Shown here piece by piece: positions 17,198 through 25,551 of a DNA stretch of 27,722 nucleotides (positions are counted from its first letter, which is position 1; the number at the start of each line of letters is the position of its first letter). This DNA comes from a virus: IMG/VR virus record IMGVR_UViG_3300044621_000681, positions 1 through 27,722 of that record. One strand, 5' to 3'. Both the position numbers and the translations under genes were made by a program. The notes beneath the pieces were generated by a model. The model was not told the DNA's origin, did no database searches, and saw only the letters and a program-made list of their open reading frames with translations.

Positions 17198-17203
17198 ATT
17201 ACG

Positions 17204-20509: not shown

Positions 20510-21144
20510 AATGTTTCTAATCTGTTTTTAATAATCTTTATATAATTTTCATCAATTTCATAACCTATATAACTATAACCTAATTCTTTTGCAACCTTTA
20601 ATGTCGTACCGCTTCCTGCAAATGGGTCAATTATTAGTTCATCATTTTTAGCAGTTGTTAGTATGATTCTTTTGATAATTTCTTCTGGTATTTGACATGG
20701 ATGTTCAGTTTTTTGTTTGCTAGTATTTTTTACTTGCTGAACTTCCCACCAATCATATAATTTAGCACCGTTTTTACCAGTTCTGTTTATATATGATTTT
20801 ATTCTTCTGTCATTAGGGTTTTTAAAAGGTTGTAATACTTTGGTAAAATCTGGTTTACAACCCCACCAACTTATAGTTCTACTTTGCTTACCAGTATTAG
20901 AATTATAAACCCATGTTACAACTTGTTCGCAATTATCAAAGCATTTTGATAGAATGTTTATTGTTTCTTCAGGATAATGAATAATTACACAAGGAGTTTT
21001 TATACATTTTAACAATTCTATATATTCATCTAATTTTAAATTATCCTTATAACTAGAATATCTATAGCTCTGATTATATGGAGGATCAGTTATTGTTAAT
21101 CCTTTAGGGTAATCGTATTTTCTAAAATCATCATTTATAATCAT
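20506..21144 (-). CDS. DNA N4/N6 methyltransferase (orphan)
   Basis: The protein has 212 residues. TDPPYN at 19-24 is the catalytic motif IV, and DPFAGSGTT at 173-181 is motif I, which binds S-adenosylmethionine. This order (catalytic motif before SAM motif) is the beta class. Other visible parts are YSSYKDN and TEHPCQIPEEI (145-155, motif near the FGG/target region). No cognate endonuclease was found nearby, so it is an orphan that probably guards phage DNA against restriction or marks replicated DNA. It overlaps its neighbours by one and four bases. Confidence 0.9.
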   Translation of the reverse strand: MIINDDFRKYDYPKGLTITDPPYNQSYRYSSYKDNLKLDEYIELLKCIKTPCVIIHYPEETINILSKCFDNCEQVVTWVYNSNTGKQSRTISWWGCKPDFTKVLQPFKNPNDRRIKSYINRTGKNGAKLYDWWEVQQVKNTSKQKTEHPCQIPEEIIKRIILTTAKNDELIIDPFAGSGTTLKVAKELGYSYIGYEIDENYIKIIKNRLETL

Positions 21145-21797
21145 TATTTAAGTTTTATTTGTGTAGTTATTTTGTTTGTAGGTACTTGGTTAAAATCCTT
21201 AGGCTTAATTATCTCATCATAGAATGATTCGTTATTTAAGTATGTATCAGGATTCTTTCTATATTGTTTATCAGGTTGTGCAATTTTATATTCCTTAGTA
21301 TGCTTAATAGCTTGTGTTCTTTGATCGTCAGTTAGTTTATTCCATTTACTTTCTAGTTTACTTTTACTACCAACCTTCTTATCATATAAATCCCACCAAG
21401 TATCAAAAGATATATTTATAGATTTATTATTAATTGTATTATTAAGTATTGTATTATTATCCTTCGCCTTTTCCGAATACCCCTCTTCGACTTTCCGAAT
21501 ACCTAATTCTCTTTTCCGAATAGGTACTGTAGGTGTCAAAATCCTTTGTTTTACTTGCTTACCATCATACAAAAGAAAGGTAGTTATATAGCCCTTACTA
21601 ACCAACTGGCTTACTAACTCACTAATCCTTGATGGACTCAACTGAAAAAACTCGGCAAAATACTTGTTACTCGCAAAGCAACCTTTCTCTTTATCTAAGC
21701 TATCTATCTCTACCAATAATAGCTTTTCCATCCATGTAAGGTTTTCGTCTAACCATACTTCTTTGGGAATCCAAACTCCCTTAAAATCTCTTTCCAT
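21144..21797 (-). CDS. Winged-helix replication protein (DnaD/O-like)
   Basis: Taken from the ATG at 21797, the protein is about 217 residues. The N-terminus (FKGVWIPKEVWLDENLTWME) plus FQLSPSRISELVSQLVSKGY is a winged-helix domain found in phage replication initiators and helicase loaders. The C-terminus has KVGSKSKLESKWNKL, then QYRKNPDTYLNN and FYDEII, a motif set typical of DnaD/DnaT/O-like loader tails. It lies directly upstream of methyltransferase and DnaB, supporting a helicase-loading role. An ATG at 21848 would add 17 residues, encoded by a GC-rich hairpin and unlike family starts, so I prefer 21797 but am not sure. Confidence 0.7.
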   Translation of the reverse strand: MERDFKGVWIPKEVWLDENLTWMEKLLLVEIDSLDKEKGCFASNKYFAEFFQLSPSRISELVSQLVSKGYITTFLLYDGKQVKQRILTPTVPIRKRELGIRKVEEGYSEKAKDNNTILNNTINNKSINISFDTWWDLYDKKVGSKSKLESKWNKLTDDQRTQAIKHTKEYKIAQPDKQYRKNPDTYLNNESFYDEIIKPKDFNQVPTNKITTQIKLK

Positions 21798-21822
21798 AAA
21801 ATAAAAGTGCCCTATCAAGTTC

Positions 21823-21888
21823 CCCCTACATTGCAGATAGGGGTTCATCTCAAGGGCAATAAGTTCTTAATGAGTCTGCAATACTCAT
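21823..21888 (-). promoter_or_regulatory. Paired hairpins with complementary loops (candidate kissing RNA or dyad operator)
   Basis: Read on the - strand, hairpin 1 (21888-21870) has arms ATGAGT and ACTCAT and loop ATTGCAG. Hairpin 2 (21843-21823) has arms CCCCTA and TAGGGG and a loop containing CTGCAAT. The two loops are exact reverse complements over 7 bases, so the hairpins could kiss in the mRNA. They span the ATG at 21848. The -7 box TATATTTG lies 2 bases before hairpin 1, so the transcript should begin at it. A repressor-bound dyad is an alternative. Confidence 0.5.
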
Positions 21889-23453: not shown

Positions 23454-23631
23454 TTGTTAATTGATTTTGTTGTGTAAAAAATTGTGCCTTTCTGATAGGG
23501 TATTGTTCCCACATTTTAACTATAGCCTCCATAGTTTCAAAACTTGATTGGCTGTAGCTCATGTTGTGGATGATTTTTGCGACAAAGATTCTTTTGTCTG
23601 TTTCGTTTAAATGTGCGAATGATGATAGCAT
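23434..23631 (-). CDS. Hypothetical early protein (65 aa)
   Basis: MLSSFAHLNETDKRIFVAKI, then IHNMSYSQSSFETMEAIVKM and WEQYPIRKAQFFTQQNQLTN: a short helical protein. Its last 20 bases overlap the start of the annealing-type gene in another frame, and it begins 5 bases after the stop codon of the DnaA-like gene. No family recognised; the regular packing suggests it is a real gene. Confidence 0.6.
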   Translation of the reverse strand: MLSSFAHLNETDKRIFVAKIIHNMSYSQSSFETMEAIVKMWEQYPIRKAQFFTQQNQLTNGTANN

Positions 23632-23636
23632 AATGT

Positions 23637-24011
23637 TTAGTTTGATGTTAAAATATTTAGTTTTTTGTTGTTTGTGTGTAATCCTAATGTTTGTTGTACG
23701 TCTAAGAACTGAGTTTTATAAAACTTGATACATTCTATATCATTTTGGAATGTTACAAGTCCATGAATAACTGTAGTGTGATCTCTGTCAAAAGCTTGTG
23801 CTATTTCTTTTAGTGTCATCGAAAAATAACGTCTAAAAATAAAGTAGCACATATTTCTACCAAAAACCAAGTTTTTACTCCTGTTTGGCGTAACTAACTT
23901 ATATCTATCAATTTTCATGACTTCACATACTGTTTTAATTACTTGGTCAAATCTTACTTCTCTTTGTTTTAATCCTGGCATAACGTAATAGCTTATTTCT
24001 GATGCTCCCAT
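23637..24011 (-). CDS. DnaA domain IV-like DNA-binding protein
   Basis: The 124-residue protein aligns with the C-terminal DNA-binding domain of DnaA: VIKTVCEVMKIDRYKLVTPN (helix 1-2), RSKNLVFGRNMCYFIFRRYF (the R-x-x-x-V-x-x-R-Q-x-A/M-x-Y pattern), TLKEIAQAFDRDHTTVIHGL containing DRDHTTVIHG at 75-84, the DnaA signature. The AAA+ ATPase domain is missing, so it cannot load helicase by itself. It might bind an origin with DnaA-box-like sites or antagonise host DnaA. The gene-free A-tract region at 25015-25147 lies about 1 kb upstream. Confidence 0.8.
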   Translation of the reverse strand: MGASEISYYVMPGLKQREVRFDQVIKTVCEVMKIDRYKLVTPNRSKNLVFGRNMCYFIFRRYFSMTLKEIAQAFDRDHTTVIHGLVTFQNDIECIKFYKTQFLDVQQTLGLHTNNKKLNILTSN

Positions 24012-24190
24012 ATTTGGTTTTTAAGTATTTCAAGTTTTTTGTCATAGAATGTTTTGATTAACTCGGTCATCTCGTAATCATTGTTTTTAAGTCTTGTTTC
24101 TATTACATAACGACTATAGCCTGTTATTTCCATAATCTTCTTCATGTCGCCATACTTAAATAGGCTTTTGTAATCTGTAATCTCTAGCAT
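23993..24190 (-). CDS. Small helical protein, possible HTH (65 aa)
   Basis: MLEITDYKSLFKYGDMKKIM, then EITGYSRYVIETRLKNNDYE and MTELIKTFYDKKLEILKNQI: a short all-helical protein. The stretch DMKKIMEITGYSRYVIETRL resembles a helix-turn-helix (helix, G-Y-S turn, recognition helix), followed by a long charged C-terminal helix. It overlaps the DnaA-like gene by 19 bases, so the two are probably co-translated. A regulatory role is plausible; function not shown. Confidence 0.6.
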   Translation of the reverse strand: MLEITDYKSLFKYGDMKKIMEITGYSRYVIETRLKNNDYEMTELIKTFYDKKLEILKNQIWEHQK

Positions 24191-24653: not shown

Positions 24654-24776
24654 TTATTGTTTAATAATAGTTTCTTCTTCTTCATCCTCTTCCCAATCGC
24701 AATGTTCTAAGCAGTCAGGACAAATATCTATTTCAGGATAATTGGTATGTGCTCCACAGCAAGTTGAGAATGGCAT
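24654..24776 (-). CDS. 40-residue zinc-ribbon-like peptide
   Basis: A short frame beginning at ATG 24776 encodes MPFSTCCGAHTNYPEIDICP, then DCLEHCDWEEDEEEETIIKQ. The cysteines CC-GAH and C-P-D-C form a zinc-binding ribbon-type knuckle pair, followed by a strongly acidic tail. The stop codon of the upstream gene and this ATG share a base (TAATG). Small zinc-ribbon proteins with acidic tails are common in phage early regions. Exact role unknown. Confidence 0.65.
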   Translation of the reverse strand: MPFSTCCGAHTNYPEIDICPDCLEHCDWEEDEEEETIIKQ

Positions 24777-24973
24777 TACTTATTAAGTTTTTGGAGTCTT
24801 GTAAAGTAGGTTTTTGGATCACCAATCTTAACCTGGCTCATGTTCCTTTCGTATTCTACAGGATGAATGCAGGTTTTTGTCTGATGATTGTAATAGGCTT
24901 GTTCGCCTTTGTCGATGACTGTGCCAGTAATACCGCACTTCATCTGGTAGCTGAGTGTGATTAATTCGTGCAT
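24776..24973 (-). CDS. Small hypothetical protein with treble-clef-like start (65 aa)
   Basis: MHELITLSYQMKCGITGTVI, then DKGEQAYYNHQTKTCIHPVE and YERNMSQVKIGDPKTYFTRL: a C-x-x-T-G-x-x-I-x-K-G-x-x-A/Y-Y pattern and one further Cys, reminiscent of the small treble-clef or ribbon proteins in which C-x-x-C is degenerate. It is the first gene of the replication block after the gene-free region. Its leader (ACACAAACAAAACAAAAAACCC) is A/C-rich. Function unknown. Confidence 0.55.
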   Translation of the reverse strand: MHELITLSYQMKCGITGTVIDKGEQAYYNHQTKTCIHPVEYERNMSQVKIGDPKTYFTRLQKLNK

Positions 24974-25014
24974 GGGTTTTTTGTTTTGTTTGTGTTGAGT
25001 GTAAAATTAGGAAG

Positions 25015-25147
25015 TTTTTGGATATATTTAAAGTTTTTAGCAGGTTTTTTGTTAAGGAAATCATAAAAGATTTTTGCTGGATTTTTGCGTAACAGATTTT
25101 TGTGGGGTTTTTGGGGAGTTTTTGCATAGGGTTTTTGGCAGGTTTTT
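25015..25147. repeat. Phased A-tracts, candidate replication origin
   Basis: Ten T-runs of 5-6 bases on the + strand (A-runs on the - strand) start at 25015, 25034, 25045, 25071, 25082, 25097, 25108, 25119, 25132 and 25143. Five of nine spacings are exactly 11 bases, and most sit in a GGTTTTTG or GATTTTTG context. Phasing near one helical turn predicts bent DNA. Because 11 is not a multiple of 3, the periodicity is not a protein repeat. It lies in the only gene-free tract over 300 bases and near the DnaA-IV gene, so an origin or regulatory bend is likely. Confidence 0.6.
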
Positions 25148-25323
25148 GGGTGCAACTGAAATTTAGTTGCATAGTCAATCAATGTTCAAACATGGATATT
25201 TTATGCCATATATTGACCTATTGACTAAAATCAATTTAAACGCTATTTTAAGCCGTTTCTAGCTTGTTTAATATGTTGGTAAGGTACTTACATAGTTTTG
25301 TATTTTTAGTGTCTTATTTCGTC
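25148..25323. promoter_or_regulatory. Gene-free control region: dyads and ATTGAC repeats
   Basis: No coding frame is convincing here. Visible elements are: a perfect 7-base inverted repeat TGCAACT (25151-25157) and AGTTGCA (25165-25171); an inverted AGTCAAT (25173-25179); two tandem 8-base copies TATTGACC and TATTGACT (25211-25217 and 25219-25226); and a 5-base dyad GTAAG-gta-CTTAC at 25279-25291. Three copies of ATTGACYA-like sequence are reminiscent of operator or iteron sites. A + strand TAGTTTTG (25293-25300) fits TAnnTTTG but points away from the - strand genes. Confidence 0.45.
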
Positions 25324-25551
25324 TTATTTTGCCAAATACTCCGCCTCTTTTATTTTTGCTATCCTTTCGGCTAATTGGTCAGTATTGTAAGATTGAAACG
25401 CAATACCTCCGCCAAATTGCTTATTGTGAAACTTACGCCCTCCTAATTGACGAGCTAAAAAAAGAGCTCTTGCGTATGTGTCAGCTAATTGCAAAAAGTG
25501 AACTACATAACGTGGGTTTCCGTTTGTGTCATTGTTAATCCTTGTAAACAT
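25324..25551 (-). CDS. Conserved hypothetical early protein (75 aa)
   Basis: MFTRINNDTNGNPRYVVHFL, then QLADTYARALFLARQLGGRK, FHNKQFGGGIAFQSYNTDQL and AERIAKIKEAEYLAK: an N-terminal strand pair, a helix and a G-G-G turn, then a C-terminal helix. This opening (R-I-N-N-D-x-N-G-N-P-R-Y-V) is one I recall from small proteins of Bacteroidota phages and mobile elements; its function is unknown. It is framed by the terminator at 25572-25594 and the control region, so it is an operon of one gene. Its promoter was not identified. Confidence 0.65.
   Translation of the reverse strand: MFTRINNDTNGNPRYVVHFLQLADTYARALFLARQLGGRKFHNKQFGGGIAFQSYNTDQLAERIAKIKEAEYLAK

Follow-up and report, generated by a model that had tools for sequence, protein, structure and literature searches.

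An array of ten short direct repeats occupies part of the 350-nt gap between two minus-strand genes (24776-24973 and 25324-25551) of the virus contig analyzed here, which is 27,722 bases long and is called the window below. The same array recurs at the same place throughout a clade of related phages. We tentatively propose that it is an iteron-like platform, that is, 5 to 12 direct-repeat putative protein sites of 9 to 10 bp (VCAAAAAYYY) with a pitch floor of about 11 bp. By its appearance it looks like a multi-site operator or docking strip. The features of the window that bear on this proposal are as follows.

21144 to 21848, minus strand: O-like replication initiator gene (phrog_270, HTH_36), the likely origin, with three internal iterons and then AT-rich DNA
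23637 to 24011, minus strand: gene for a DnaA domain IV protein (PF08299), of which the clade has at least five divergent types beside the same array
23993 to 24190, minus strand: gene for P65b, a 65-aa helix-turn-helix-like protein found clade-wide, a candidate binder
24776 to 24973, minus strand: K65, a 65-aa gene downstream of the array, absent in some array-bearing relatives
24974 to 25014, minus strand: leader of the K65 gene, with a TAATTTTAC element and an A6 by the start codon
25015 to 25147, minus strand: the array of ten direct-repeat sites, consensus VC-AAAAA-YYY on the coding strand, with repeat units under selection
25151 to 25171, no strand assigned: inverted repeat TGCAACT-N7-AGTTGCA, directly 5′ of the array in the transcript sense
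25324 to 25551, minus strand: TreK-like gene (PF24229, 75 aa), located upstream of the array; some array-bearing relatives lack it or have it displaced

Repeat units, relatives, and selection

On the strand as given, T-runs of 5 to 6 bases start at 25015, 25034, 25045, 25071, 25082, 25097, 25108, 25119, 25132, and 25143. This is the densest T-run cluster in the window, with ten runs in 135 nt, and it is well beyond chance (1000 order-2 Markov sequences, each of 2.5 kb, gave at most 7 runs). The initial annotation had counted ten such runs between 25015 and 25147, had likened the units to iterons, and had pointed to relatives as a place to see whether the tract is kept. All of this was borne out: the spacings of 19, 11, 26, 11, 15, 11, 11, 13, and 11 were reproduced exactly, the units are direct repeats under strong purifying selection, and in 209 testable loci the tract is conserved and not replaced by unrelated sequence. 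Read on the minus (coding) strand, the array runs CCCAAAAACCTGCCAAAAACCCTATGCAAAAACTCCCCAAAAACC and so on, and the surrounding genes all point leftward. A T6 at 24977-24982 (A6 on the coding strand), just upstream of the next start codon, belongs to the same site family, and the TAATTTTAC element of the K65 leader (25001-25009) is conserved at the same place in relatives. Most relatives also have a hairpin or palindrome where the window has its inverted repeat, directly before the first array unit.

Related contigs were gathered by scans with the DnaA-domain protein, K65, and TreK. A sense array was recovered in 209 of 209 testable loci, mostly with 5 to 12 sites; 10 of these loci had only 2 to 4 clustered units under a 21-nt chaining rule. 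Its orientation is always the sense of the leftward early genes, and antisense runs never exceeded 3 in these loci. All 39 distinct gaps between TreK and the next gene contain it, including those of relatives whose K65 is only 46 to 54% identical. When 13 long records were searched with an exact pattern, 9 matched, each at essentially one place. Across the clade relatives, then, the array has a single place, a single orientation, and independence from neighboring modules.

A pattern scan of the viral collection found the array nowhere outside this clade, apart from fragments that plainly bear it; most of the unrelated matches were perfect 11-bp tandem repeats. Matches in the bacterial and archaeal collection were limited to near-perfect 11-bp tandem repeats and to hits of chance-like quality, and none came with genes of the clade. 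Such near-perfect 11-bp tandem repeats holding an A5 occur in bacterial and archaeal genomes of many unrelated phyla (L291-L315). Cultured relatives were sought with three queries (the array DNA, K65, and the conserved 225-aa protein), and none was found; nor was any known RNA family found to match the array. Within the collections searched, the array is so far clade specific and undescribed.

The A-run of the unit is nearly always five long (767 A5, 89 A6, and 31 A4), and a run of six is often followed by a spacer of five, so that the pitch remains 11. Selection was separated from array-finding bias by aligning 77 independent pairs, with columns defined from one member only. In these pairs the A-tracts changed at 1.2%, the spacers at 8.1%, and the flanks at 9.1% (p about 1e-50). 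Each of the five A's changed at 0.2 to 0.6%, compared to 5.0% for control A3-A4 runs. Positions −1 (C) and +2 each changed at 4.7% and position +3 at 6.8%, the latter almost exclusively between C and T; other spacer positions changed at 9 to 12%, comparable to neutral flanks. Positions +1 to +3 are almost free of purines; TT is disfavored at +1/+2 and T at −2. That the A5 cores are far more constant than spacers or flanks implies selection on the sites themselves and not on the intervening DNA. The site is thus V-C-AAAAA-Y-Y-Y, apparently recognized base by base, with spacers that are free apart from their length.

Genome layout and gene exchange

The capsid protein of the window is closest to those of Cellulophaga and Flavobacterium phages. 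In near-complete relatives, late genes, among them a terminase-like gene that we assign from reading its sequence, run rightward. The early genes point leftward, starting from a divergent region that is AT-rich, and the array lies about 1.5 kb into this leftward block. After the array come K65 and small genes, the DnaA-domain protein, the 225-aa protein, the O-like initiator, and DnaB. The stand-alone DnaA domain IV protein of this locus comes in five or more types that are about 30 to 40% identical, with neighbors that stay similar, a sign of frequent swapping of the gene. In one relative (L034:4226-4636), P65b and the DnaA-domain gene are apparently fused in one frame, through an internal deletion or an assembly join. 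Outside this clade, the phage records with members of the TreK-like family are mainly those of Staphylococcus phages, and 47 to 49 bp of the gene match two Staphylococcus phages at 88 to 89% DNA identity. A likely intrinsic terminator (AAAAAACCCCCAGATTTTACCTGAGGGTT) lies at a convergent gene junction in the region of position 17198 of the window, and in relatives too.

Many relatives carry one or more cassette genes between the array and the K65 leader, with an array-K65 distance of up to 1.85 kb; some of these genes look methylase-like, from our reading of their sequences. Several cassettes begin at an ATG right behind the last unit (AAAAATCTTTTATG; L044, L139, L122, L076, L120, and others), and one methylase cassette (L025/L056/L021) also ends at the AAAAATCTTTTATG 14-mer. 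With the last unit directly against the cassette start codon, transcription of the array as a leader is very likely in those lineages. Sequence comparison marks the 3′ edge of the array as a hot spot for the exchange of genes.

Several candidate partners and roles were set aside. Neither K65 nor TreK fits as a partner, because for each there are array-bearing relatives in which it is absent or displaced, and the DnaA-domain protein does not covary with the array over its five types. A role as upstream activator of the K65 leader was rejected because the array can stand 1.85 kb off, behind cassette genes, and one as a general translation-start element because a site lies at the start codon in only a few genes.

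Spacing and the alternatives at the DNA and RNA levels

The spacing between units has a floor of about 11, which is the commonest pitch, and 13 to 21 are also common. In 115 distinct arrays, the values are mostly 11, 13, 15, 17, 19, and 21. Odd spacings are favored over even ones, 53 versus 16 among clustered distinct units (p about 1e-5) and 45 versus 15 beyond 11 (p about 1e-4). Spacings beyond 11 show no helical-phase preference (mean resultant, 0.08). This would be unexpected for a rigid cooperative filament and counts against a protein platform, as does the lattice of odd spacings (11, 13, 15, 17, 19, 21).

The main rival to the platform is that the transcribed array is a single-stranded RNA site, for Rho at a rut-like site, for S1, or for another RNA-binding protein, and that the bound factor regulates the downstream genes through termination or translation. 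The lack of helical phasing suits this reading, as do the single orientation relative to transcription, the hairpin ahead of the array in most lineages, and, in several, the last site abutting a cassette start codon. The sense RNA is also among the most C>G stretches of the window and nearly unfolded (minimum free energy [MFE], −0.3 for 78 nt), and C exceeds G in the sense RNA in 6 of 6 genomes. Rut predictors ask for a C every 11 to 13 nt (PMC6407284), and the sense RNA has one at this interval; under a strict criterion of C/G > 2 with regular C, the array ranked first or second in three of six genomes and tenth in one, and it was missed in two, including the window. The case for Rho looked strong at first, and two tests then weakened it: G at free spacer positions is 0.22 to 0.23, i.e., not depleted, and RNA of the arrays folds slightly more than that of spacer-shuffled controls (mean z, −1.17). 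Moreover, the invariant part is the A5, which rut sites do not need, and the YC-containing triplet TTC is avoided (3 occurrences versus 39 expected). Taken together, we consider an RNA-level role rather unlikely. It is because G is undepleted, the arrays are more folded, and A5 and not YC is conserved that we would, with modest confidence, prefer double-stranded protein sites over RNA reading. For such protein sites, 9-bp repeats with 2-bp gaps are a geometry established by experiment (the stbDRs of plasmid R388; PMC3098194).

At the DNA level, the initial annotation had predicted a strong bend from helical phasing of the runs and had suggested an origin near the DnaA-domain gene; neither a bend of that kind nor an origin served by the DnaA-like protein was supported. 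Curvature was computed with two wedge models, together with phase tests. In favor of phased A-tracts that bend the region upstream of a promoter are the A5-A6 tracts with 11 as the commonest spacing and the fact that bending within the window, taken over 66 bp, peaks at 24991-25056, where the array borders on the K65 leader. However, the spacings show no tuning to 10.5 bp, with a phase coherence of 0.46 versus 0.51 when the order of spacings was shuffled (37 distinct spacing patterns) and the resultant of 0.08 given above; the array windows, mostly at the 84th to 99th percentile of predicted curvature, are nowhere the most compact, other regions of the window being more so; and in cassette-bearing relatives the array can be far from the K65 leader. 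The sharpest local bend of the window adjoins the array, the array itself is not top ranked, and intrinsically curved DNA seems to us a very improbable explanation. A phage replication origin, at which the DnaA-domain protein or the initiator would open the DNA, is improbable as well, despite the iteron-like units and the replication genes nearby. The array is constant over four initiator types and five DnaA-domain types, and the DnaA box TTWTNCACA occurs once in the whole window, at 23471, and not in the array. As to the GC-skew switch that had been proposed as a check, in seven genomes the array lies within a broad cumulative trough, but the minima fall −1.8 to +1.9 kb from it and shift when the array is masked. 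Initiator-type-specific iterons and AT-rich DNA are found inside the initiator gene itself. In the window, three (C/G)TATTCGGAAA iterons at a 21- to 22-nt pitch occupy about 21470-21523, and iterons plus AT-rich DNA make up a putative lambda-type origin at about 21398-21523 on the minus strand. This repeat is kept in close relatives of the window's initiator type and is absent from the two distant initiators (52 to 54% identical); other initiator types have different, shorter internal repeats. Because it has iterons of its own, we infer that the initiator gene would be a better origin candidate than the array. Finally, repeated sites or a Chi-like function might promote exchange of the cassettes directly behind the array. 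Methylase-like and other cassettes at its 3′ edge in many relatives, several starting at AAAAATCTTTTATG and one bounded at its end by the same 14-mer, are consistent with such a recombination hot spot, and so is the conserved 225-aa protein of the operon, which we take from its look to be a putative Erf-type recombinase; no Pfam match backs that assignment. The idea is improbable in our view, as the 14-mer stands at both cassette ends in some lineages only, and base-level selection on A5 and YYY in cassette-free lineages would be left unaccounted for.

A candidate binder and comparison with known systems

We return to the protein platform. It would sit where the early genes give way to the exchangeable cassette and replication genes of a Bacteroidetes-type siphophage clade. 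One can envision a protein that recognizes the sequence and occupies neighboring sites of the double-stranded DNA in a row. The complex so formed would act as an operator or a road-block, gating the passage of leftward transcription out of the early genes and on to the cassette genes and the replication genes; alternatively, it might otherwise structure the genome at the array. Given that the array is constant across the clade, the binder must be constant too, which points either to a host factor or to a phage protein from the small universal set, e.g., P65b. Besides the DnaA-domain and initiator proteins, P65b is the only DNA-binding-like protein present clade-wide, and its predicted structure is helix rich and HTH-like. 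Searches found no match of P65b to any structure or family, and across the clade the site motif does not covary with its putative recognition helix. For these reasons we do not treat P65b as the established binder; it stays a candidate.

A more specific version seems quite unlikely to us, namely, that the array is an early-to-middle gate of Bacteroidetes phages, built as a ladder of VCAAAAAYYY sites in two-nucleotide steps and read by a conserved host or phage factor that ignores the helical face. Being indifferent to the helical face, such a factor would use a measure other than ordinary DNA phasing. If true, this would be a new kind of phage early-to-middle gate.

To our knowledge, little is known about how Bacteroidetes phages time their genes. 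A cis-element kept while proteins diverged to about 40 to 50% identity and flanking genes were exchanged suggests a control point. The array could serve as bait for finding its factor and as a marker for an uncultured clade, and the strict site and the odd-spacing rule are specific, testable facts.

The closest geometry that we compared is that of the stbDRs of plasmid R388, direct repeats of a 9-bp site with 2-bp gaps (11-bp pitch), five per set, which lie upstream of an operon, have the sequence TTGCATCAT, and are bound by StbA (PMC3098194). The two have in common short direct repeats, here too most often at an 11-bp pitch, a place upstream of an operon, and a unit that also occurs at other leaders. 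They differ in that the sequences are unrelated, the pitch of the array is also 13 to 21 bp, and the system here is phage borne, with one array only and no StbA or StbB recognized. The shared geometry (PMC3098194) would fit a partition or centromere-like site of a phage-plasmid, of the ParR/parC or StbA/stbDR class. We regard that as highly unlikely, since no partition ATPase or integrase was recognized in the scanned window genes or in the partly scanned open reading frame lists of near-complete relatives.

Rut sites partly resemble the array, in C>G composition, in a C every 11 to 13 nt (under the strict criterion in only some of the genomes), and in weakly structured sense RNA, whereas the array has an invariant A5 and free positions without G depletion. 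Phased A-tract curved DNA likewise has A5-A6 tracts with a commonest spacing of 11 bp; here, in contrast, the array is not phase tuned, the pyrimidines after the A-run are also selected, and predicted curvature is high without being the highest in the window. Lambda-type initiator iterons are, like the array, direct repeats close to replication genes, but in this clade they lie inside the O-like initiator gene, and the array stands 3.5 kb away, independent of initiator type.
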